From positions 1-23,834 of IMG/VR virus record IMGVR_UViG_3300025151_000303: a stretch of DNA of 23,834 bases; one strand, given 5' to 3'. The notes below the pieces were generated by a model. It was not told where the DNA came from, made no database searches, and saw only the letters and a program-made list of their open reading frames with translations. This DNA is from a virus. The translations under genes and the position numbers were made by a program. This document shows, piece after piece, positions 1,753 to 23,834 of this stretch (position 1 is its first letter; each line of letters opens with the position of its first letter).

Positions 1753-3726
1753 TTATGTAATGTTTTGTAGTGTGCCAGCGTTTATACCACCTTTACCACC
1801 TTGTATGTGCTTCATTAAAGCATCAGCATATTTTTTATCTGTTTCAACAGCGTTAATGAATTTATCAAATGCTTTTTTCTGCGCTTCAGTTGCCCCATTT
1901 TCACCTTTAAACCACTGCATAGGAGTTTTACCAGCAGTTTTATTTTGATCTGGGTACCATTTGTATTTACCGTTTTCTAATTTAAATCTACCAAAACCCA
2001 TTTCTCCCATACTAGAGTCAACAATAATATCTGTTCCAGAGACTTTAACACCATCAACGCTAACAGCTCTAAATGGCCCTATATTAGCTGTTATTGGTCT
2101 ACCATTTTCTAATATATTAGCTTTACCTGGACCATCACCAACAACACTAAGATTACTCATCTCAGTATAATTAGTTGTGTATTGATCTCCTTGATTATTT
2201 TCAGATTGATTATTGTTGTCAACGTTAAATTGATCTATGCCCAATTCTGGATTAAATACAGATTGATCACCTTGATCACCTTGGTTACCTTGATCACCTT
2301 GATCACCTTGGTTACCTTGATCACCTTGATTACCCATACTTAACCTTTCCTGTTCCATTCTAGCAAGCGTCGCTTCAGTTTCCTGTTCATCCATAAATGC
2401 CATACCAGCTACTCTTGATGCTCGAAGCACCTCTTTATCTAGACTTTGCATGTATATATCTTGACTCAAGTTGGTTAAATATCCAGCTAGTAAATCACTT
2501 CTTAACTCCGGTTGATTGTTGATTATCTCATCAACAATAGCTTCAACATCACTATCTGTTATTGGAGTATCTTTTGTTGGGTCCATACTTTTAGCGTCAC
2601 CCTCTGTCATGTTTATACCCATACTTTGATAAGTGTTATTCTTGATAGCTTCTATTAAATCTTCTTTTGGCACTCTACCACCAAGCACAGGGTTGTTCCA
2701 TATTCCCTTTGAATTTCCTTTAGCTTCAAAGGTTTTCATTTTATCATATGTAACACTCCAGTTGAAATCTGGTTTTTCTCCAACTTGAACGTTTTTAGCA
2801 TTATTTATGGTGCTGTTTATATGTCCCTCAAACTCTAATTGACTTTTTTCATCTGGCGCATACTCATTAATCATGTCTATAAATTCCTCATGTGTAACAA
2901 ACTCCAAATTTTCTGGCAAGTTATTTATATCAATAATTTGTAATTCTTTTGTTCTACGATCATGTTCTGGTCCATCTCCATCCTTGTCCACTCCTGTTTC
3001 TAAAAGAGCTTGATTTTGGTTTAAATACTCTTTATAAAACTCTGCAACACTTGGATGCATAGTCGATTGTTGACCCTCATGTTCGTATAGATAAGCGTTA
3101 CTTACATTTTGATCTCCTGTAGGTTGGTCACTAGATTCTTTATTTTCTTCTTCTTTAGTTTTAGTGTGATACATTTTACCATTCCACTCAAACTCTTTTA
3201 GTCCTTGATTTTGGGCGTTAGCAAAAGCTTTACTAAAATCATCATTTTGTTTAACATAACCATTAAGTTCGTTACCATTACTATCCTTTAGTTTTACTGT
3301 TTTACCATTGTTTAATATAGTTGTTATTTCGTCTTTTCTATTCGATGGTAAAAGATGAGATAAATCTTCAGCATTTATAGCTATATCGTTCATGTTGTTT
3401 TCGTCGGTAACAACCTGTTCAGCCAGTTTGTTTAAATTATCCTCTGCTTCTAATCTAAGTTTTCTATCATTTAAATAAACATATCCAAATCTTTGTTTTT
3501 CTATTTGATCGTATAATTCATCTTTTTGATTTTGACTTAAATCATCTTTGTTTAATTGATTAGCTAGTATTCTATTAAACTCTCTATTTCTAGCTTGAAA
3601 CATTTTACCTAGTCCAGTACTAAGATGTGTTCCAATATCACTAAATGCTTTTGATTGAGCTAGTTTGCCTTTACCACCGATTCCAGCTGCTAAACCAGCT
3701 CCATGTACTAATGTTGTGTTTGCCAT
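1753..3726 (-). CDS. Internal virion protein-like structural protein with Gly-Asn/Asp-Gln repeats (657 aa)
   Basis: This is a complete 657-residue protein starting MANTTLVHGAGLAAGIGGKG. The start is 27 bases after the preceding gene and lacks a Shine-Dalgarno site. Residues 1-45 are Gly/Ala-rich. Residues 45-110 are charged and probably helical (QARNREFNRILANQL). The middle is hydrophilic and rich in Asn, Asp, Glu and Gln, with an Asp-rich loop DKDGDG at residues 247-252 that resembles a calcium-binding loop without being a full match. Eight G-(N/D)-Q triplets occupy residues 465-488. The C-terminus is a more compact basic region (PMQWFKGENGATEAQKKAF). There is no signal peptide or clear membrane helix. 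It sits between a gp14-like ejection protein and a giant ejection-type protein, so it is probably the middle member of an ejection set (role like T7 gp15). I recognise no catalytic domain, and the role rests on context. Confidence 0.65.
   Translation of the reverse strand: MANTTLVHGAGLAAGIGGKGKLAQSKAFSDIGTHLSTGLGKMFQARNREFNRILANQLNKDDLSQNQKDELYDQIEKQRFGYVYLNDRKLRLEAEDNLNKLAEQVVTDENNMNDIAINAEDLSHLLPSNRKDEITTILNNGKTVKLKDSNGNELNGYVKQNDDFSKAFANAQNQGLKEFEWNGKMYHTKTKEEENKESSDQPTGDQNVSNAYLYEHEGQQSTMHPSVAEFYKEYLNQNQALLETGVDKDGDGPEHDRRTKELQIIDINNLPENLEFVTHEEFIDMINEYAPDEKSQLEFEGHINSTINNAKNVQVGEKPDFNWSVTYDKMKTFEAKGNSKGIWNNPVLGGRVPKEDLIEAIKNNTYQSMGINMTEGDAKSMDPTKDTPITDSDVEAIVDEIINNQPELRSDLLAGYLTNLSQDIYMQSLDKEVLRASRVAGMAFMDEQETEATLARMEQERLSMGNQGDQGNQGDQGDQGNQGDQGDQSVFNPELGIDQFNVDNNNQSENNQGDQYTTNYTEMSNLSVVGDGPGKANILENGRPITANIGPFRAVSVDGVKVSGTDIIVDSSMGEMGFGRFKLENGKYKWYPDQNKTAGKTPMQWFKGENGATEAQKKAFDKFINAVETDKKYADALMKHIQGGKGGINAGTLQNIT
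2263..2334 (-). repeat. Eight tandem 9-bp units encoding Gly-(Asn/Asp)-Gln
   Basis: On the plus strand the unit alternates between ttgatcacc (Gly-Asp-Gln) and ttggttacc or ttgattacc (Gly-Asn-Gln). Eight perfectly in-frame copies lie inside the 657-residue gene at residues 465-488. The protein pattern is collagen-like in having Gly at every third position, but it lacks proline. The near-identity of the units suggests recent expansion by slippage. It probably forms an extended hydrophilic linker. Confidence 0.95.
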
Positions 3727-14686: not shown

Positions 14687-15601
14687 TTACTTTATTTGTT
14701 TACCCATACCTTTTAGTATTTGAGTAAATTCTTCTAGTTTAATATTAGATAATCTAATTTTTGCTTTTCTTGTTTCAGCGAATTTCTCCTTTTTATATCT
14801 TAACACAATATATTCCGGTATGTTAGATCTAGTGGATAGTATAGCATAAACAATATGTTTATAACAGGCTTCTTCACAGAACTTATGTATTACCATTTCT
14901 GAGTCTGTACCTAAACCATCACTAACATAATGAAGTGTTATTGTTTCTCCTGCTAAATCAGAACCGAACTTTATAACACCTCTTAAGTTATCTATAAAGT
15001 AAGAACCGTTAATTTGAGCATGCTCTGGCTCTAGCCCGTATCTTCTTCCTTTAGCAGAAATTTCTATATCATCATTGTAATCAATATCGTAAACTCTATA
15101 ATTAGATGGGGTTTGAGTTTTAAAATTAGTAGAAGTATTACTAGGTGACTGTTCTGATAACGTATCTTCTACTGCATCAAAATCTGTATCTGAAAAAATA
15201 TAATCCCCATCGCTGTTTTGCTCTATAGCAAAAGGATCTGATGTCTTTCTTGCTGGATATAAATTTCTTTCTATACCATCACTACCAACTCTAGATAGTT
15301 TTATATAGTTTACGTAATCTTGAGGAAGAACCATAGATAGATTATTAGGAACTTCTATTTCTTGAGATTTAAAAGAACGTAATATATCGTATGATAATTC
15401 TTGCATAGCACGCATCGCGTGAAATCTAACATCAGTTATTGAAGCTTTAGATATTATCTTTGCTTCACCAACGTAAGCTATCATGAAGTTATTGATTATG
15501 TTTTCTAGCGTAGTAAATTGATAATTTGTTGAACTACCGTGAGACGCTGGGTTTGTAGCGCTATAGTAAGTTGCTTGATTTGTTCCATCTAATAATCCCA
15601 T
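14687..15601 (-). CDS. Head-tail connector / ring-type structural protein (304 aa)
   Basis: A 304-residue protein starting MGLLDGTNQATYYSATNPAS. The first 30 residues are flexible and Ser/Thr/Asn-rich. A helical region follows (NIINNFMIAYVGEAKIISKA, then RFHAMRAMQELSYDILRSFK). The middle is beta-rich (LPQDYVNYIKLSRV; GRRYGLEPEHAQINGSYFID), and the C-terminus is helical and basic (LRYKKEKFAETRKAKIRLSN). The plan of an N-terminal helix pair, beta middle and C-terminal helices is that of adaptor or tail-tube A proteins (T7 gp11, P22 gp4 class, crAss ring proteins). The 'LPxDYVNYxKLSRV' signature is common in marine phage structural proteins, from memory. It starts 2 bases after the other connector gene and stops 3 bases before the nozzle gene. 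It probably joins the portal to the tail tube. No enzyme motif is seen. Confidence 0.72.
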   Translation of the reverse strand: MGLLDGTNQATYYSATNPASHGSSTNYQFTTLENIINNFMIAYVGEAKIISKASITDVRFHAMRAMQELSYDILRSFKSQEIEVPNNLSMVLPQDYVNYIKLSRVGSDGIERNLYPARKTSDPFAIEQNSDGDYIFSDTDFDAVEDTLSEQSPSNTSTNFKTQTPSNYRVYDIDYNDDIEISAKGRRYGLEPEHAQINGSYFIDNLRGVIKFGSDLAGETITLHYVSDGLGTDSEMVIHKFCEEACYKHIVYAILSTRSNIPEYIVLRYKKEKFAETRKAKIRLSNIKLEEFTQILKGMGKQIK

Positions 15602-15603
15602 GA

Positions 15604-16341
15604 TTAACTATTTTTTTGATTAGTTGTTGAATGAATATCCAGTAAAGCAGATTGTTGGATATCCTCATTTTTAGTTAAAACTCCAGCAAGTTGTAATATT
15701 CTATTTACTAAATTTTCTTCTTCAGATTTGTGAAGTTCAAAATCAACAGCTAAATTTCTATTATACAAAGCTTTTTGTTTTACCAAAACATAACTCCAAT
15801 TAGGTTTATTTGGTCTCATCAAGTAGTTGCAGTAAACATCAGTGAGTATGGTAACAGGGTATATTTGTATTCTTCTTTCTCTACCAATATTATCATCTTG
15901 GCCTATTGAAAATCTAGTATAAATAGGTCTAGTTTCTGTTGGTGCTAATGTACTTGAAGATAGTATAAAACCTATTTCATTTTGATCTACAATATCTATT
16001 TTATAAGATTTAGTTGGATCATTGTTAGGTCTATAAAATAAACCACCTATTTTGTAGTTTTCTGGAAGTGTGGCAATACCCCCACCATTTGACATATCTA
16101 AAAGTTCATTGTATTTTTCAAAATGATCTATTTTATCTTGCACACTAGTAGCATTATCAGAGTATATAGTATCATTAGATGCTATTCTTCTAAATCTATC
16201 TTCTTCACTAAAATAGTTTTCAAATATTTCCATTTGAGCCTTATCTGCCAATAAATTAAATTCTTGAGGCGTTATATAACCTCTCTGTTCTTTATTGGCT
16301 ATAGCTAAAACTTTTTGATATACTGTATCTACGCTTATCAT
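15604..16341 (-). CDS. Head-tail connector / ring-type structural protein (245 aa)
   Basis: A 245-residue protein starting MISVDTVYQKVLAIANKEQR, followed by GYITPQEFNLLADKAQMEIF. The pattern 'VYQxVLxxxNKEQxGYITPQEFNxxAxxAQxxIF' is a recognisable opening of conserved structural proteins in marine and crAss-like phages that form a ring below the portal. The middle is beta-rich with a 'LPENYKIGGLFY' strand, then a typical 'RRIQIYPVTI' strand and 'YLMRPNKPNW' segment. The C-terminus is helical (DFELHKSEEENLVNRILQLA). It begins 2 bases after the 53-residue gene and ends 2 bases before the next connector gene. The two connectors are probably translated together and assemble as stacked rings. There is no catalytic motif. 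The family resemblance is from memory and was not searched. Confidence 0.74.
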   Translation of the reverse strand: MISVDTVYQKVLAIANKEQRGYITPQEFNLLADKAQMEIFENYFSEEDRFRRIASNDTIYSDNATSVQDKIDHFEKYNELLDMSNGGGIATLPENYKIGGLFYRPNNDPTKSYKIDIVDQNEIGFILSSSTLAPTETRPIYTRFSIGQDDNIGRERRIQIYPVTILTDVYCNYLMRPNKPNWSYVLVKQKALYNRNLAVDFELHKSEEENLVNRILQLAGVLTKNEDIQQSALLDIHSTTNQKNS

Positions 16342-16343
16342 TT

Positions 16344-16505
16344 TTAATATTTTTTATAAGGAAAATTTTTATTAAGCCAATCTTTTCTGCGATCACAACC
16401 GCAATCTTTATAACCAACGGCTGCAAAAGCTAATTGAGTTAAAGTTTTAATTCCAGTAGCTTTTGTAAACTTGTCAACTGTATCTCCTAATCCTTTTGGT
16501 TCCAT
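16344..16505 (-). CDS. Small Cys-containing phage protein, DCGC motif (53 aa)
   Basis: A 53-residue reading frame, easily missed because of its size. It starts MEPKGLGDTVDKFTKATGIK and ends with KDCGCDRRKDWLNKNFPYKK plus a final Tyr. A glycine-led amphipathic helix is followed by a short hydrophobic stretch (TLTQLAFAAVGY) and a Cys-Gly-Cys motif. From memory, short phage proteins with 'GLGDTVxKxTKATGIKxxxxx...DCGCxxRKxxLNKxFPY' recur in Bacteroidota phages and other late operons, which is why I call it real. The stop codon lies 2 bases before the next connector gene, and the leader is A/T-only with a TA run. It is too small and soluble-looking for a holin. The two cysteines could bind a metal or form a disulfide. 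Function is unknown. It may be a small connector or assembly factor. Confidence 0.75.
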   Translation of the reverse strand: MEPKGLGDTVDKFTKATGIKTLTQLAFAAVGYKDCGCDRRKDWLNKNFPYKKY

Positions 16506-16577
16506 AACTTATTATATATATATATTTTACTATATTATAATCACATGATAAAGTGGAAGGTTAGCCCCTAAATAAAA
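16506..16577 (-). promoter_or_regulatory. A/T-rich intergenic leader, possible promoter for the connector-tail genes
   Basis: This gap between the second terminator and the 53-residue gene is one of the longest in the window. On the minus strand it carries a TATAAT at 16534-16539 and a TA run near 16511-16524. No convincing -35 box lies at the usual distance, and the flavobacterial TAnnTTTG motif is absent. Transcription restarting here after the terminator would be logical, but the sequence support is weak. Confidence 0.2.
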
Positions 16578-16602
16578 ATAGCCACCCATAATGAGTGGCT
16601 AT
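16574..16602 (-). terminator. Intrinsic terminator after the 278-aa gene
   Basis: On the minus strand a perfect 8-bp stem (ATAGCCAC with GTGGCTAT, 16595-16602 and 16578-16585) encloses a 9-base loop and is followed by TTTTATTTA. It begins about 20 bases after the stop of the 278-residue gene and precedes the 53-residue gene. Position, stem and T-rich tail fit a rho-independent terminator acting on the minus-strand transcript. The T run is short, so partial read-through is likely. Confidence 0.8.
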
Positions 16603-16621
16603 TAATACTAGTTAAAAGATA

Positions 16622-17458
16622 TTATTTTAATCTTTTTTCTATATTTGAATATATTTCCATACCTTCGTCGGTTTTAAACCAAGCAGCTAATGCTGAATAT
16701 GGATGTTCATCAAATGGAACTGTCATTAGCTTTCTATCATTAGAACCCCAACTAAATGTTCGTTGATCAGATGATAACTTAATTATTCTCATTTCAGTAG
16801 CTCTAATACCAAAGTTTCTAAGCATTACATTTTCATCATCAACTAAATCTAAGAACAGTTTAGGATTCTTCTTAGCAAATAATAGTAAATCTCTTTTAAG
16901 CTCCTTAGAACTCATGGTTGTTACTTTAGATCCAACTTCTACTCTCATTACCGCTTCAACCATGTCTATATCTAGATTTTGAGCAGCATTTAATGCAGCT
17001 ATTTCTCTTTCAAGAATATCAACTTCATTTTCGGCAATAACCTCAGCTTTATACTCGTAAAACAATCTGTTTCTTTCTGGGTGATATAAAGATAAAAGTT
17101 TTTGTAATACTACCTTCTCTCTTGGAACATGCAAGTAACCATTTCGAAAAATAATATGTTCTAATCTTTGATCACCTTTCATTTCATCAACAAATGGTGT
17201 TCTTTGATTTTCGCAATATTTTAGTTCTCGCTCGTATCCCTTTTCTTCATCGAAATAAAATATCCCAGATGATCTTATAGAATAAGTTAAGGGTTTTCTA
17301 GTTCTTTTTAAATAATATATTCTATCTTTAATTTCCCATTTGGGTTTTTTAATCTCGGTTTTTGTCTCCCTTTTAGAAATCTTAACTATCGGTTCTTCTA
17401 TAACCGTTTTTTCAATTACAGGTTCTTCAACCTTAATTGTTTCTTTTTTCTTTGCCAT
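16622..17458 (-). CDS. Unknown conserved phage protein between capsid and connector genes (278 aa)
   Basis: A 278-residue protein starting MAKKKETIKVEEPVIEKTVI. The first 45 residues are a charged, low-complexity Lys/Glu/Ile/Val stretch. The rest looks folded: beta-like YYLKRTRKPLTYSIRSSGIF with FYFDEEKGYERELKY, a segment LEHIIFRNGYLHVPREKVVL, then a helical region with HPERNRLFYEYKAEVIAENE and EREIAALNAAQNLDIDMVEA, a helical KELKRDLLLFAKKNPKLFLD, and a C-terminal AAWFKTDEGMEIYSNIEKRL. There is no signal peptide, membrane segment or catalytic motif. I do not recognise a family, though proteins of this pattern occur beside capsid genes in marine phages. It is flanked by terminators on both sides, which sets its expression apart from the capsid and connector genes. 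It could be a head-completion, cement or scaffold-assisting protein. This is inference only. Confidence 0.7.
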   Translation of the reverse strand: MAKKKETIKVEEPVIEKTVIEEPIVKISKRETKTEIKKPKWEIKDRIYYLKRTRKPLTYSIRSSGIFYFDEEKGYERELKYCENQRTPFVDEMKGDQRLEHIIFRNGYLHVPREKVVLQKLLSLYHPERNRLFYEYKAEVIAENEVDILEREIAALNAAQNLDIDMVEAVMRVEVGSKVTTMSSKELKRDLLLFAKKNPKLFLDLVDDENVMLRNFGIRATEMRIIKLSSDQRTFSWGSNDRKLMTVPFDEHPYSALAAWFKTDEGMEIYSNIEKRLK

Positions 17459-17484
17459 AATATAATATAATAAAAATTAATAAT

Positions 17485-17512
17485 AAAAAAGGAGTGGAAA
17501 TTAATCCACTCC
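17485..17512 (-). terminator. Strong intrinsic terminator directly after the capsid gene
   Basis: On the minus strand a perfect 8-bp stem (GGAGTGGA with TCCACTCC, 17505-17512 and 17491-17498) encloses a TTAATT loop and is followed by six T residues (17485-17490) and further T/A. It starts about 17 bases after the capsid stop codon. This is a textbook rho-independent terminator. It probably limits transcription into the 278-residue gene and so favours capsid protein. Confidence 0.92.
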
Positions 17513-17529
17513 CTTTTAAATAAATAGTT

Positions 17530-19035
17530 TTACTTCATTAACATAAAGTTGTTTGCACCTTGTGTGATTAAACATCTTTCTGATAAGTAGTGAACTTGCA
17601 TTGCATCCAAGTCAGATGTAACTGCACCAACTGAACCAGTAGTCCAAGTTTTTAGTCTTCTGTCGTCAGTTTGTGAAGCTCTATATCTAACGTGTAAGAA
17701 TGGTCGCTTAAGGTTTTTACCTAGCATTTGATCATACACAGATGAAACACCAGCAGGTACAAAGACACCTCTAATAGCATCACTAGTACCTCTTTCATTA
17801 ATACTTCCTCTTGTAGCTTTATCATTTAAGTATTTCCAGTCAGATTTGTAGAAGTCATAAGAACCTCTTCTAAATCCTGAGAAACCTAAATTAAGTGCCA
17901 TATCTTCTGAGTTATCGAATACTCCGTAAGAAGTACCTCCAGCTCCGTAAGAATTCATTGAAGCAAGCATGTCATCTACAGCTAGAGACGAAGCTCTATT
18001 TACAAACATCATGTTTTCCTCAATAGCACCTTGATTATCAAACTCAGCAAGAATAGCATCAAACTCAGCTAAATCAGTAGCAGCGTTAACACCAGTAATA
18101 CCTGTAGTTACATTACCTCTATCTTCAATAGCAGCAAATAAACCTTCAGTACCTGAGTTAGTTCCTAAAGCAGCATAATCAGTATCGTTAGTACCATCAG
18201 CATCAACGATACGAGATGCAGCAGCTGTTTTCTCAGCTTCCATCATTGTCATCTCTAAGTAATCAGTAAATCTAGATCTTGTATCACCTTCAGCTTTTAA
18301 GTACCATAAATAACCATTTTGCCCATCTTCACCAGATATCTCTACCCAACCAATTTGAGAAGCATCAGATCCAGAGATCTCATAAGCGTCCTTCATAATA
18401 ATTGGTTTGTTAGTAAATGAAACGTGAGTTGGTTTAACAGTTCTAGCAGAGCCAGTACCTGATCCATAAGAACCTTGACCTGTTACACCTTTCTTAAACT
18501 CAGAACCTATAACTAGTAATGTTGCATCTAAGTCAGCGTCAGCGATATCTGAATCATCATCAAAATCTTGAACATTATATGGTTGTACAGTTATTACTTC
18601 AGCCGCAACTTTAGTTACATGAGCTCTTATTACTCTACCAGCTACAGCTACAAGACATATGTCATTTAATCTAACACCGTGATCTGCTAATGTAAATACA
18701 TTTGTAGTACCTGCATTATTACCATCAATATCAGAGGTAACAGTAAATGTTGACACATCCGTATTTAAGGTACCTTTAACTGAGATGTGTAATCTACCTT
18801 GTTCAGTCCATATAACTTGATCAGCAGTCATAGACTCTTCTGCTCCGACTTGTGCTAAGAAACCAGAGACTGTTCTATTACCGAACACTTCAGCTTCTTT
18901 TTCCATTAAGTCAGGCAGGTATTGTTTTGCCCAGCCATTGCCACTGGCTGTAAAATCGATGTAATTTGAATCTAGTGTTTGCTTTTGTGGAGCAGGTACA
19001 CTATTCAAATTGCCACCAGGATTTGAAATTGCCAT
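17530..19035 (-). CDS. Major capsid protein, HK97-fold type (501 aa)
   Basis: A 501-residue protein starting MAISNPGGNLNSVPAPQKQT. The middle block YEISGSDASQIGWVE (about residues 214-228), followed by YLWYLKAEGDTRSRFTDYLE and MMEAEK (about 236-265), is the signature I associate with major capsid proteins of crAss-like and uncultured marine phages. The region between residues 80 and 170 is a beta-rich insertion (VTKVAAEVITVQPYNV; DFDDDSDIADADLDATLL). The C-terminal half holds P-domain-like segments (FDAILAEFDNQGAIEENMMF; GFRRGSYDFYKSDWKYLN) and a final 'HYLSERCLITQGANNFMLMK'. Codon use is clean, and the gene is followed at once by a strong terminator, as expected for the most abundant virion protein. 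It lies 22 bases after the scaffold-like gene. There is no Shine-Dalgarno; the leader is A/T-rich and ends AAATTATG. Exact fold placement was not tested. Confidence 0.9.
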   Translation of the reverse strand: MAISNPGGNLNSVPAPQKQTLDSNYIDFTASGNGWAKQYLPDLMEKEAEVFGNRTVSGFLAQVGAEESMTADQVIWTEQGRLHISVKGTLNTDVSTFTVTSDIDGNNAGTTNVFTLADHGVRLNDICLVAVAGRVIRAHVTKVAAEVITVQPYNVQDFDDDSDIADADLDATLLVIGSEFKKGVTGQGSYGSGTGSARTVKPTHVSFTNKPIIMKDAYEISGSDASQIGWVEISGEDGQNGYLWYLKAEGDTRSRFTDYLEMTMMEAEKTAAASRIVDADGTNDTDYAALGTNSGTEGLFAAIEDRGNVTTGITGVNAATDLAEFDAILAEFDNQGAIEENMMFVNRASSLAVDDMLASMNSYGAGGTSYGVFDNSEDMALNLGFSGFRRGSYDFYKSDWKYLNDKATRGSINERGTSDAIRGVFVPAGVSSVYDQMLGKNLKRPFLHVRYRASQTDDRRLKTWTTGSVGAVTSDLDAMQVHYLSERCLITQGANNFMLMK

Positions 19036-19057: not shown

Positions 19058-20233
19058 TTAATTCTTTTTTCTAATTTTAAAGGATCTGTTTTTTATATCA
19101 GAAGAAGAATCACCTAACACTCTATATTTTACACCCCCAACATTTGTTTCGCTGTGAGATTTTCGAGGTTCAGTGTTTATGTTTTTATCTTTAGCAACTC
19201 TTGTTCTTGTCGCATCAGCTTTACCTTGTTCATAAAAATGATTAGCAATAGCATCAGCGTTCATAGCTGTAAATAAAGATTTGTGATAACCCTTAGCATC
19301 TTCAATAGTTGATTTATCTTCACCAACAAACTTGTTAATGAAATTATTAATATCACTTTGATTAGTCTTTACTTTATCAACATCTTTAATATTAAACCGA
19401 TATTTTTTATCTCCAACATTGTATTCAAAACCTTTGAACTCTTTGTTAAAAACACTATCGGTTTTTTGTAAAAATTTATTTTTACTAGCTTCAGATAACT
19501 TCTTCTGCTCTTTAGAATCCTTATTGTATCTATTAAAGAAATCAATAGCTTGTTGTTGTTCTTGGGTCAACTTCGACCCAGCTTTGATGTCTTCATAGTA
19601 TTTAGACTTTTGCCCGTCTAAGTAGGCTTTAGCCTCGGCAACTTGCTCTTTGAGGGCTATTTTTTTACTACGTATTGTTTTATCATCATCAACATCTTCA
19701 TCAATACCAAATTTATCTTCTAATAAAAAATTACGCTCTTCTGCTGTTAGATGAGATTTTTTAACCCTATAATACTCGTCCAGTATATCAGAGTCATCCA
19801 TCTTAGAAATATCTCTATTTAAATTTACGTAATCTTGTATATCACCACCAGTTTCTTCCATAAAGTCTATTAACTTCTGTATATTTTCTGGTAATGGTTT
19901 TCCAGTTGCTTCTGCTTCAACTACAGCTTCTTCTACTTGTTCTTCTACCTCTTTAACCTCTTCTGTAACCTCTTGAAGTATCGGTTGTTCTTCCACAACT
20001 TCTTCAACAACTTCTTTTTCCTCGACTACGTCCACCTTTTCTTCTTCAGCGGGTTCTTCTTCAACCTCTTCGCCTTCTTGAACTGGTGGTTTACTTAAAT
20101 CTATTTTAATAACACTATCGTCTCCAGCACTATCAAACTTAGATTCATCTATTTCTTGAGTAACCTCTTCTATAGGTTGCTCAGTGTTTTTTTCAGTTAC
20201 TTCTTCGGTAACTTCTTTTAATTCTTCTGTCAT
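19058..20233 (-). CDS. Putative capsid scaffolding protein, acidic (391 aa)
   Basis: A 391-residue protein starting MTEELKEVTEEVTEKNTEQP. Residues 1-110 are an extremely acidic Glu/Val repeat-like stretch (EEVEEEPAEEEKVDVVEEKE) that is probably disordered. From about residue 115 a helical, conserved-looking part begins (LPENIQKLIDFMEETGGDIQ, then DYVNLNRDISKMDDSDILDE). It continues with an FLLEDKFGIDEDVDDD segment and Lys-rich helices (IRSKKIALKEQVAEAKAYLD). The C-terminus is basic (KNRSFKIRKKN). An acidic, coiled-coil protein with a basic C-terminal tail, directly before the capsid gene, is the usual plan of a tailed-phage scaffold, whose C-terminus binds the capsid shell. No protease motif is visible in it or nearby. 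The 22-base gap to the capsid gene suggests coupled expression. The scaffold role is inferred from position and composition. Confidence 0.75.
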   Translation of the reverse strand: MTEELKEVTEEVTEKNTEQPIEEVTQEIDESKFDSAGDDSVIKIDLSKPPVQEGEEVEEEPAEEEKVDVVEEKEVVEEVVEEQPILQEVTEEVKEVEEQVEEAVVEAEATGKPLPENIQKLIDFMEETGGDIQDYVNLNRDISKMDDSDILDEYYRVKKSHLTAEERNFLLEDKFGIDEDVDDDKTIRSKKIALKEQVAEAKAYLDGQKSKYYEDIKAGSKLTQEQQQAIDFFNRYNKDSKEQKKLSEASKNKFLQKTDSVFNKEFKGFEYNVGDKKYRFNIKDVDKVKTNQSDINNFINKFVGEDKSTIEDAKGYHKSLFTAMNADAIANHFYEQGKADATRTRVAKDKNINTEPRKSHSETNVGGVKYRVLGDSSSDIKNRSFKIRKKN

Positions 20234-20266: not shown

Positions 20267-22660
20267 TCACATGTTTAAACCTGCATCCCCTGTAACTATA
20301 TCATTACCTGATGACTCAAATTTATTAAGTGAATCACCCCTATTTCTTTGATCTATCATATCTTTTTGATGAGCAGCTTGTCTATCTACTCTTTCATCTT
20401 TTCTATCTTCTCTTTTAGCTTCATTACGTTCTGTAATCTCTCTTTCCATTCCCTTTAATTGAGAATTTAATTGAAATTCATATGCCATTAGTTCTTTTTT
20501 AACAGCAGCTTCTTCTCTTAAATATTGAATTTTTAATTGTCCTTTTGTTTGTTCTAACTGAGCTTCAGCTTGGGTTTTTGCTTCATTCTTTTGAACCTCA
20601 GCTTGAGCCGCTGCTTGTTGTTGTTGGGCGTTAGCTTCAGCTTGAGCTTGGATATTTTGCTGTTGAATTTGTTGATCTCTAGCTATTTTATTTTTTCTTT
20701 TAAGTTTCAACAGTTGATTTGCTAACTTTATATTTCTAACATTACGAAGATCAATAGCGTCGTCTAAGTCAATTGATTGCTGAGCTAAAGCTTGTTGTAT
20801 ATTATTTTCTAATATAGCTTTTTCTTCTTCATCTGGAAGTAGTTCTATAAATATACCAAAATCGTAAAGATGTAACTCTTTTAATTCGTCTAACGTTGCT
20901 ACATTGTGAACACCTATAGCGTGTATAAAAGCTTCTTTTGTTGGTGAGTACTCTATTATATCGGATATTCTTAAAGATAAGCACTCAGCTGTTTCAGCTG
21001 TCAAATACAACATTGACTGCAATATGTGTCTAGTTGCTGTATTTGAGTTAGCTGCTGCTAATTTTTGTATACCAACAAGAGCATTTTTATCTGGAGTACT
21101 AGCATCTCTAGCTTCGTTTAATCCGGTTACATCTCTAATCATTTGTAAATAATAATTATAAGTTGTAATCAAGCTTTGAAGTTTACCACTATTAACTCCA
21201 TTGTTTATTTGTTGGATTGGTACTTTACCTGGATTCATATCTCCATCAGAAGTAAAACTTCTACCAATAACACTACCAGTTTGGAAGAACATGTTTAAAG
21301 CTTCTTGTGGGTTATAATTTGTTCCGTTACCGAGATCAACTTCAGCTAAACCATCAGCATCTAGGTAAACACCATCTGGTACCATACGTGCCATTACTTG
21401 TTGCAACTTTAAATGAGTTAATTGAATAGTATCAGCAAAACCCGTTATTCTTTTTACTAAAGATTCTATTCTACCTTTATACATTCTTGGTGCTACTATT
21501 TGGTAACTCATTTTAACTCTAGCGAAATCAGAATCTGAACGCATCATATTCTCTGCCATTTCCCACTTTAATAATTTATCGCAACCAACTATATAAACTC
21601 CTTCATAAATAGTTTCAACGACTCTCTCAAGTTTATGGAATTCTCCATCCATACTTTCAACAGGTGGATTAAATGTGTCATCTTTCTGAATAACTTTATC
21701 TGCACCAGTAGCAGTTTTCTTCAACTTATAAACGTCGTTCATATGAGTTTTATAATTAAAATATAAAACTTCTATTTTGTTTTTATCAGCATTAGTTCTA
21801 TAGCTAGCTCTACTAGTTGCTGTTTGGCCAGAACTATCTGTTATTTCTTTTATTTCTTCTTCTGATAAATCTGGAAATTCTTTAACCAACTCATTAATCG
21901 GAATCTCTTTCACTTCACCAACATAATATATATCGTCAAAGTATGGTGATTCAGTATAAGAGTAAACTAAATTAGCTGGATCAACATATTTAACTTTAGC
22001 GCCATCAGCCCAATCAAAAGTTGTTTTAGTTGCACCAATACCTATAGTTGTTAAATCGTATAAACATCTTCTTCTAATTAGATCATAATCACTATCTTCC
22101 ATTAACACGTTGATAGCTTGTTCTTCTGCTAACTCAACCGCTTGTTTATAGTTAAGTTGCATATGCAGAGCTAGTTCCTCTTCCGTGTCGGGTAAAGTTT
22201 CTGGTTCATTTTCATATAAATCTATATTAAATCTTTGCTTAGCTATTTCGTTAAAATTTTTAGAACGCATATCCCTTAACATAGACTCCATGTATTCTGT
22301 TCTTTTGCTAACACCATATTGATCTTGAGAAAAACAATTAATTTCAAAGTTTCGTTGAGACATACCGTTTACAACTATATCAACAAACTTGGGAATTATA
22401 GGAACAGGTTTCCAATCTAAATTAAGATAAGATAAATCACCGTTTATAGATAATTCATTTTTATATTTTTGAATAGATTGTTCACCCCTAGCGTATAGTC
22501 TTAATTGGTGAAAATCGTTTAGATTATTATCAAACCTAGATGTAGTACCATCAAACCACTCTTTTTTTATAGCTTTAGCAATATCTTCTCCATATTTGTA
22601 GGACATTTTTTCTAAGTCGCTAACAGCTTGTGACGGAAAGTTTACAGTGTAATCTCTCAT
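20267..22660 (-). CDS. Portal protein with long Gln-rich coiled-coil tail (797 aa)
   Basis: A 797-residue protein starting MRDYTVNFPSQAVSDLEKMS. The start is one base after the terminase stop codon (TAG T ATG), so translation is probably coupled. Residues 60-130 include VPIIPKFVDIVVNGMSQRNF, the wing or clip entry typical of portals of marine and crAss-like phages, and residues 165-225 include EEQAINVLMEDSDYDLIRRR with LYDLTTIGIGATKTTFDWAD. The core helical part near residues 385-545 has APRMYKGRIESLVKRITGFA and a GLNEARDASTPDKNALVGIQ loop. Residues from about 650 to 780 are a Gln/Ala/Glu-rich coiled coil (NIQAQAEANAQQQQAAAQAE) with a charged end (NEAKREDRKDERVDRQ). It forms the dodecameric ring for DNA entry and exit at one capsid vertex. 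The coiled-coil tail, comparable to the barrel of P22-type portals, may reach into the capsid. Position between terminase and scaffold supports the call. Confidence 0.88.
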   Translation of the reverse strand: MRDYTVNFPSQAVSDLEKMSYKYGEDIAKAIKKEWFDGTTSRFDNNLNDFHQLRLYARGEQSIQKYKNELSINGDLSYLNLDWKPVPIIPKFVDIVVNGMSQRNFEINCFSQDQYGVSKRTEYMESMLRDMRSKNFNEIAKQRFNIDLYENEPETLPDTEEELALHMQLNYKQAVELAEEQAINVLMEDSDYDLIRRRCLYDLTTIGIGATKTTFDWADGAKVKYVDPANLVYSYTESPYFDDIYYVGEVKEIPINELVKEFPDLSEEEIKEITDSSGQTATSRASYRTNADKNKIEVLYFNYKTHMNDVYKLKKTATGADKVIQKDDTFNPPVESMDGEFHKLERVVETIYEGVYIVGCDKLLKWEMAENMMRSDSDFARVKMSYQIVAPRMYKGRIESLVKRITGFADTIQLTHLKLQQVMARMVPDGVYLDADGLAEVDLGNGTNYNPQEALNMFFQTGSVIGRSFTSDGDMNPGKVPIQQINNGVNSGKLQSLITTYNYYLQMIRDVTGLNEARDASTPDKNALVGIQKLAAANSNTATRHILQSMLYLTAETAECLSLRISDIIEYSPTKEAFIHAIGVHNVATLDELKELHLYDFGIFIELLPDEEEKAILENNIQQALAQQSIDLDDAIDLRNVRNIKLANQLLKLKRKNKIARDQQIQQQNIQAQAEANAQQQQAAAQAEVQKNEAKTQAEAQLEQTKGQLKIQYLREEAAVKKELMAYEFQLNSQLKGMEREITERNEAKREDRKDERVDRQAAHQKDMIDQRNRGDSLNKFESSGNDIVTGDAGLNM

Positions 22661-22661
22661 A

Positions 22662-23834
22662 CTATTGTTTTATTATTGTTGATTGAAATCCTTTATTATT
22701 ATACTTTGATATATTAAGGTTTAGTGGTGTTTTTTTCTTTTCTGGATTTGGACGATACAAGTGTCTATTACAAGCCATTATTGCTAAACCAGTACTTATA
22801 GAGGCATCATGCTTTGTTCTTTTGTTTATATCAAATCTAGACCAATCATTCAACGTGTCATTAAAATACATGGTACCGTAAGTACCATCTTCTAACAAAC
22901 CGACATGGTCATTAATATATGTTTCAATTGCAGCAGCATGAGCTTGTTTTATGTCTTCACTGGAGTTTGGTATTCCACCTACTTCTTTTTCTGCAACTGA
23001 TAATTTATTCCATATTTTATCAGGTCTGTTCATACTAAAACCTCTGTAACCTCTTCTACGTAAGTAGTATAACAATCTTGGTTTGTTATTCTCTGCCAAT
23101 ATCGGCATACCATAAAATACTAGTGCCATCAAAACGTCTTCAAAAAACATATCAGCTGTTTGTGGTCTAGCTATATATTCTAAAAAGAAAGTATTAGCCG
23201 GAGCATCTTCCATGGAAAACTTAGTTAATCCATGCAAAGCCCCTTTAGATCCCTTAGAATCTACTGTTCCTGATATATCATATGAGTCACAACCAAATGC
23301 TCCCATGTGCTCGTTACCTGGATATCGTACGCCATTTTTAATTATAACGTTATTTTGTAGTTTTTGTCCTGGTACCCAACTAACTTTAAATCTACCATTA
23401 GGGTCTGGGTTGAAACTAACGCGTGTATCTTTAACTCCATTAGCCCATTGAAAATTTCCATTTGTTATTACAGATGAATTTCTGTTTCCTTCATTATAGT
23501 CTATTTGTTCATATATCTTTATTAGATTAAACAAACTATTCTTCGTCTCATCTCTAAATGCATGTTCTTCGGTTCTGGGAAATTGACGATAAAATTCATT
23601 TAAAGCGTCTTGATCATCTTTTAAACCGTCAGCTTCATTTTCCCAATGATCTACAACTCCTTGATCTATTTCTAATCCGTGTGGATCAAATGTTCGTTGT
23701 TCAGGATCACTGAATACAGGTCGTCCGAATTCATCAATGAATCCCTCGTAATTCCATTCCATAGGAATAAACAAAGAATATAATCCCGACTTAGTTTGTC
23801 CATTTCTATTGCGCTTGGTAACATCTGAATCATA
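22662..23834 (-). CDS. terL: Terminase large subunit, C-terminal nuclease half (cut by window edge)
   Basis: The frame is open from base 23834, with 390 residues visible and the ATPase half missing. The in-frame TTG at 23772-23774 is not the real start, because the frame continues upstream (RNRNGQTKSGLYSLFIPMEW). That segment, followed by EGFIDEFGRPVF, is the bridge after the ATPase in terminases of marine and Bacteroidota phages. The nuclease has its expected acidic residues: Asp in GCDSYD (23286-23288), Glu in ILAENNKP (23091-23093) and Asp in KHDASISTGLA (22806-22808). This RNase-H-like domain cuts the concatemer during packaging, and the missing N-terminal half would drive DNA into the portal. 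The C-terminal tail is basic (RPNPEKKKTPLN). It is followed by the portal gene after one base, the common order in tailed phages. Confidence 0.92.
   Translation of the reverse strand, partial: YDSDVTKRNRNGQTKSGLYSLFIPMEWNYEGFIDEFGRPVFSDPEQRTFDPHGLEIDQGVVDHWENEADGLKDDQDALNEFYRQFPRTEEHAFRDETKNSLFNLIKIYEQIDYNEGNRNSSVITNGNFQWANGVKDTRVSFNPDPNGRFKVSWVPGQKLQNNVIIKNGVRYPGNEHMGAFGCDSYDISGTVDSKGSKGALHGLTKFSMEDAPANTFFLEYIARPQTADMFFEDVLMALVFYGMPILAENNKPRLLYYLRRRGYRGFSMNRPDKIWNKLSVAEKEVGGIPNSSEDIKQAHAAAIETYINDHVGLLEDGTYGTMYFNDTLNDWSRFDINKRTKHDASISTGLAIMACNRHLYRPNPEKKKTPLNLNISKYNNKGFQSTIIKQ

Follow-up and report, generated by a model that had tools for sequence, protein, structure and literature searches.

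The closest described relatives of the small protein examined here, which we refer to as the DCGC protein, are deposited as hypothetical proteins in six phages: MW202828 (UOF82526.1), Microcystis phage Mel-JY01 (WWT39382.1), Nonlabens phage P12024S (P12024S_35), Cellulophaga phages phiST (phiST_gp020, KC821604) and phi13:1 (phi13:1_gp014), and Tenacibaculum phage Larrie (UXQ88754.1). These share a core with the protein of our window (the whole stretch analysed, positions 1 to 23,834 of IMG/VR record IMGVR_UViG_3300025151_000303), yet occupy other places in their genomes. A profile of the family matched MW202828 (e-value 4.2e-24), Mel-JY01 (2.5e-20), P12024S (2.3e-10), phiST (2.1e-09) and Larrie (1e-07), and by this profile the phiST and Larrie proteins are confirmed as very diverged members, whilst phi13:1 gp14 was reached through a tblastn match to the Larrie protein (e-value 0.08). 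The P12024S protein has CESC instead of CGC and an added C-terminal module, and those of phiST and Larrie have CNC instead of CGC and lack the FPY motif. A first-pass annotation of the window had called the frame easily missed by gene callers; this is true of another phiST record (HQ634192/NC_020842), where the gene is unannotated, but its deposition as a hypothetical protein in several phages means that it is not generally missed.

Outside these phages, likenesses are faint or lie in other genes. Two PHROG families, neither with a function, come closest, both matching the core weakly in several members: the window protein scores 0.0028 with phrog_27568 and 0.017 with phrog_32048. For the latter the value falls to 2.1e-10 in the fused L060 form, and its matches cover a fused long form and extend beyond the 53-residue one. 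Any likeness to SU10-type adaptors or crassvirus ring proteins is confined to the neighbouring gene, the DCGC protein itself having no such match. Phage morons are comparable in the presence or absence of a single gene with sharp edges; morons often have their own promoter and terminator, whereas the DCGC gene has a shared leader and little space before its downstream neighbour. No match was found in NCBIfam among 91 members, above the Pfam threshold in any of 11 scanned members, or in Pfam at e-values up to 1 for the window protein, and ten further members searched in Pfam up to 0.1 gave only a sub-threshold DUF4457 (0.053) in L135. A profile search of the PDB found no relative (best e-value 0.24), no tRNA was found near the Larrie gene, and a literature search confined to open-licence articles found no paper on the family.

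The DCGC gene and its operon in the window

The gene encodes a basic protein (computed pI 9.4, mass 6.0 kDa) with the full translation MEPKGLGDTVDKFTKATGIKTLTQLAFAAVGYKDCGCDRRKDWLNKNFPYKKY, ending in KDCGCDRRKDWLNKNFPYKKY; the plus strand across the same interval is interrupted by stops. GLGDTVDK and TLTQLAFAAVGYK are candidate peptides for low-mass proteomics. It sits in a single long minus-strand operon in the order TerL, portal, acidic protein, capsid, m1, hairpin, DCGC, CONN1, CONN2 (Table 1), a position from which late expression of the operon would be expected. As first described, the frame fits between a terminator and a connector gene, with the hairpin upstream and the stop 2 nt before the ATG of CONN1.

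Table 1. Features of the operon around the DCGC gene, in window coordinates
Feature	Position	Strand	Basis and remarks
CONN2, virion structural protein	14687..15601	minus	phrog_13977, 1.5e-39
CONN1, adaptor/ring-like virion structural protein	15604..16341	minus	phrog_14543, 9.9e-35
DCGC protein gene	16344..16505	minus	ORF call, homologues; 53 aa, ATG start at 16505, TAA stop
AT-rich leader CTTTATnATGT..TATAATATAGTA	16506..16565	minus	conserved among relatives
Terminator-like hairpin, 12 pairs then T-run	16577..16603	minus	between m1 and DCGC
m1, conserved 278-aa protein without assigned function	16622..17458	minus	phrog_34748
Putative major capsid protein	17530..19035	minus	phrog_13704 (virion structural), 3.5e-97; role from gene order and weak crassvirus match
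Acidic protein in scaffold position	19058..20233	minus	ORF call; putative role from position only
Portal protein	20267..22660	minus	phrog_6547, 1.2e-147
C-terminal portion of the terminase large subunit, truncated at the window end	22662..23774	minus	phrog_6681, 1.4e-82

The connector-like character of the downstream neighbour was borne out, since its PHROG is virion structural and 4 of 22 CONN1 homologues matched SU10_adaptor in Pfam (best 1.2e-5); one matched CrAss_Ring_3_4. The Crass_capsid match of the putative capsid protein (0.04) lies below the cut-off, and the acidic protein had no usable family match in PHROG or Pfam. Searches with the portal and CONN1 gave as cultured matches phages of Flavobacterium, Cellulophaga, Tenacibaculum and Maribacter together with MW202828 (87 records each). 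The hairpin was the one terminator-like hairpin found, with 0.3 expected in shuffles (folding z-score −4.46); it is common to relatives with and without DCGC, and in relatives it marks the junction of two recombining gene blocks. The leader is possibly a promoter, and a sigma-70 scan gave a signal not clearly above shuffles; in some DCGC-less relatives (e.g. L159, L193) the same leader joins the adaptor gene directly. A search for a terminator in the gap from DCGC to CONN1 gave none, and the upstream hairpin and leader both occur in DCGC-less relatives as well. Elsewhere in the window, a 657-aa protein (1753-3726) contains a short collagen-like GDQGNQGDQ repeat, and its tail-fibre family matches span that repeat only; no RNA families were found within the window.

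Conservation, predicted fold and long forms

The DCGC protein is a widespread, uncharacterised small protein of marine phages, mostly of Bacteroidota type. The window protein matched 2 of 50,697 phage records by tblastn and a second family member matched 7; a first scan of viral contigs gave 49 loci, and a second at least 577 confirmed stretches, of which 80 were retained. This bears out the first-pass statement of a pattern recurring in phage late operons. The shared core comprises a GLGDT-helix, TGIK, DCGCxxRKxxLN and FPY, all present in the window protein. A scan of genome contigs gave 10 loci, and a family-wide search matched 2 of 299 genomes, one being the Galbibacter genome already found; matches this sparse indicate that the gene belongs to phages or prophages and is not a common one of their hosts. 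In the family alignment G7, D8, C35, C37, R40 and N45 are invariant in all 91 members, so that the proposed 53-residue frame is real and its cysteines conserved, and across 121 representatives the motif reads CGC in 118, CNC in two and CESC in one. Compared with four relatives by the Nei-Gojobori method, the window copy gave dN/dS values of 0.107/0.58, 0.12/0.79, 0.287/0.77 and 0.291/0.82, a range from 0.15 to 0.37 that is far from the value near 1 named beforehand as grounds for doubt. The median over 796 pairs was 0.33, with 82% below 0.5 and a maximum of 1.30, values above 1 occurring in distant pairs, where dS is probably underestimated in AT-rich DNA. By these comparisons the gene is under purifying selection, and a chance open-reading frame is ruled out by the relatives, the at least 577 stretches, the six invariant residues and the low dN/dS.

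Carriers mostly have a single copy: 32 of 34 records gave exactly one match, L031 gave two, and the remaining record gave a weak second match inside a large open-reading frame. The two genes of L031 (4989-5207 and 6968-7297) differ from one another and lie 1.8 kb apart, the second having its own C-terminal extension. Large virion-type frames in L311 (1033-5439) and L312 (1-3354) contain a CxC stretch resembling the C-terminal part of DCGC (e-values 6.9e-5 and 0.008); as weak profile matches that looked like chance or convergence, these were set aside as family members.

AlphaFold2, run with 91 sequences, predicts three helices (mean pLDDT 90.0, pTM 0.66), placed in the window protein at residues 6-17, 19-29 and 37-47, with CGC opening the third. 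A fold search of the PDB with this model gave no match. A library of viral models gave 17 matches at e-values up to 10, seven of them up to 0.001; all are unnamed or uncharacterised except that at rank 17, a putative virion structural protein with an insignificant e-value of 7.7. Long forms of the protein (type C below and some others) end in an extra C-terminal module containing another invariant cysteine pair, so that the 53-residue form has two cysteines and the fused form four, invariant in all 12 sequences aligned. The module resembles a separate 68-aa partner found in type D loci (hhalign probability 94.8, e-value 5e-8). A joint action of the two parts is probable, as the module is fused in some phages and encoded by an adjoining gene in others; AlphaFold2, run on 12 sequences, gave only a weak model for the fused form (pLDDT 69). 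The second cysteine module was not found elsewhere in type A or B genomes, its matches falling in 5 of 34 records, all at fused forms. The cysteines may bind a metal or link a dimer through their thiols, or may pair with the second Cys-pair module.

Placement, presence and absence across phages

Placement was recorded for 121 representatives, with neighbours taken from a simple ORF caller rather than a gene finder and context labels (A, B, C, D and Z) set by rules made for this analysis; late-gene surroundings proved recurrent. In type A (27 representatives) the gene has the window's arrangement, with m1 on one side and CONN1 on the other; 0 to 10 nt separate its stop from the start of the adaptor gene, except for one overlap of 1 nt. 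Type B (56) is a region variably containing chaperonin genes, small Cys-containing proteins (DUF5754, DUF6321, DUF5872) and a fibre-like 162-aa protein, and type B contigs, where long enough, have a terminase and portal of the window's type. The DUF6321-type small protein beside DCGC (L081:5709-5993 and similar) finds its PHROG matches mostly at the very C-terminal end of longer phage proteins, like a portable C-terminal tag. Type C (8) is a sigma-like/terminase setting, type D (10) has a sigma-like gene on one side and the 68-aa partner on the other, and type Z (20) lies elsewhere. In all 18 representatives of types C and D the sigma-like gene (phrog_1740) stands one or two genes upstream, a count that is partly circular because type C is partly defined by that gene; the same arrangement occurs in L319. 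In temperate-type phages a longer DCGC form lies between the sigma-like gene and TerS-TerL; a small terminase subunit was ruled out as its identity, since L318 and L319 have a separate TerS (phrog_1482 / phrog_606) after the long form. A second, MW202828-type lineage has DCGC upstream of TerL and portal. The ten representatives with a separate partner, plus L014, L019, L020 and L064, have recombination and replication genes rather than virion genes nearby. In phi13:1 a virion protein, MS/MS-detected per the record, starts 5 nt after the DCGC gene; the record marks gp12 and gp15-gp17 as detected by MS/MS and leaves the small DCGC protein unmarked.

The window-type lineage was also surveyed by m1 irrespective of DCGC, using the best 80 of 590 confirmed stretches, of which 67 were informative and 13 were set aside as incomplete or without a connector match. 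DCGC precedes CONN1 in 22 of the 67, and the other 45 have a short gap only. Whole-contig searches of 19 window-type relatives lacking the gene at this site (two >66 kb) gave no match in 18 and one weak, Cys-less, chance-like match. At the adaptor site of MW202828-type loci DCGC was found in 0 of 79, and 9 of 16 whole contigs of this type contain it, among them all six with a length of at least 56 kb. DCGC was likewise not seen at the adaptor site of Cellulophaga phages phi38:1 and phi18:3 and a Flavobacterium elemo phage, whose 12-kb stretches gave no member in a profile search, and in Panino and phi18:3 other small genes occupy the same gap. Five close pairs have DNA 76 to 86% identical upstream that diverges at or near the hairpin or leader, after which one has DCGC and the other begins CONN1; for example, L188 and L161 share ~86% identity up to the hairpin, with DCGC in one only. 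The m1 tree requires at least 16 presence changes, 9 forced by well-supported branches (27 of 500 shuffles were as low, nearly as scattered as chance), and the CONN1 tree, built on 66 of 68 rows after two too-short ones were dropped, requires 12, with 9 forced (0 of 500 shuffles as low). The DCGC tree itself gives 12 changes for place A, 3 of them forced, a weak count because it has 48 columns and few supported branches (10 of 118 inner branches). DCGC is thus gained or lost at least nine times with good support on each of two gene trees; it is a clean accessory single-gene cassette. In L117 (5185-6150) m1 and DCGC form a natural in-frame fusion, a single 321-aa frame created by loss of the hairpin and stop, with a breakpoint that looks like a short shared AATAT; this fused frame exceeds the length limit used and is therefore outside the representative set.

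Across 23 loci with all seven genes, the divergence of DCGC correlated with that of CONN1 (r 0.56, p 0.001) and portal (r 0.43, p 0.002), less so with that of CONN2 (r 0.20), and not with those of capsid (r 0.02) and m1 (r 0.05). The 16 non-redundant loci gave 0.51 with the adaptor, 0.38 with the portal, 0.03 with the capsid and 0.01 with m1, and a 41-locus set gave 0.47 with CONN1 and 0.00 with m1. Capsid and m1 correlated with each other in the 23 loci (r 0.87), and neither did so with portal or CONN1. The capsid protein and m1 (16622-19035) behave as one exchangeable block amid the portal and adaptor, in a mosaic late operon whose joint lies at the hairpin. Linkage by itself could account for the co-variation of DCGC with the adaptor, and a common backbone ancestry for that with the portal; these effects explain part of the pattern, which hints at the neck without proving it.

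Candidate functions

We tentatively favour an optional late helper of particle assembly at the portal/packaging vertex. On this reading the small, basic protein, with three helices and a CXC dithiol, would be expressed late from the optional single-gene cassette and, though dispensable, would assist assembly, presumably at the portal vertex, during packaging of DNA, completion of the head or joining of the neck. This is the best supported reading because the places by adaptor, portal, TerS-TerL and virion-fibre genes share a theme; tight adaptor spacing, co-divergence with adaptor and portal, the places upstream of TerL and portal and at TerS-TerL, the presence in all six MW202828-type contigs of at least 56 kb, the virion neighbour in phi13:1 and the m1 fusion are all in its favour. 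It accommodates type D and the places on the replication side poorly, and the absences at the site, the state changes, the missing MS/MS mark in phi13:1 and the lack of a PDB fold relative also count against it. The first-pass annotation had drawn a small head-tail joining or assembly factor from a constant place next to connector genes. That constancy did not hold, and a protein absent at the site in 45 of 67 loci of its own lineage cannot be a required head-tail joining part; a required connector or completion protein is ruled out by its presence in only 22 of 67 loci at the site and beside a connector in only 27 of 121 representatives, which leaves the assembly half of the proposal standing as a possible optional assembly or packaging helper. 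The gain and loss itself is best accounted for by a moron-like gene acting on the host or rival phages (anti-defence, takeover or superinfection control), for which the late promoter would be a safe landing place, and this doubtful but possible explanation comes close behind the vertex helper: single-gene presence or absence in close relatives, the supported changes, several unrelated places and the other small genes in the gap of Panino and phi18:3 all agree with it. Such a gene would be less expected to be mostly single copy, to keep a strict sequence core across unrelated phages and to lie within packaging and virion operons, and none of the 91 members matched a PADLOC model, a library of defence rather than anti-defence proteins.

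The remaining explanations start from the cysteines or the sigma-like neighbour. DCGC could be one of two parts of a reusable Cys-bridged module, with a metal or disulfide linking its CXC to the Cys pair of the second small helical module; in solo carriers it would form dimers, and phages of unrelated structure would repeatedly have recruited it to the packaging/portal machinery as an optional part. We consider this rather unlikely. Unlikely too, and slightly more so, is a late-transcription cofactor working with the sigma-like protein encoded just upstream; that gene accompanies DCGC throughout types C and D and in L319, but is not near it in the 27 type A and 56 type B representatives. CXC peptides can serve as redox catalysts, and a thiol-disulfide helper in which CGC folds or locks virion proteins as a redox pair would suit the near-constant motif at the N-terminus of predicted helix 3 and the GroEL/GroES genes that are frequent neighbours in type B; we judge it improbable, as one member has CESC and two have CNC, and no redox protein related by sequence or fold was found in the PDB.

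The family has hundreds of members in marine phages, yet no solved relative and no assigned function, and cultured carriers exist in Cellulophaga phi13:1 and Tenacibaculum Larrie. From the gene trees, joints of recombination within the late operon can be placed as well, setting the capsid block apart from the portal/adaptor backbone.
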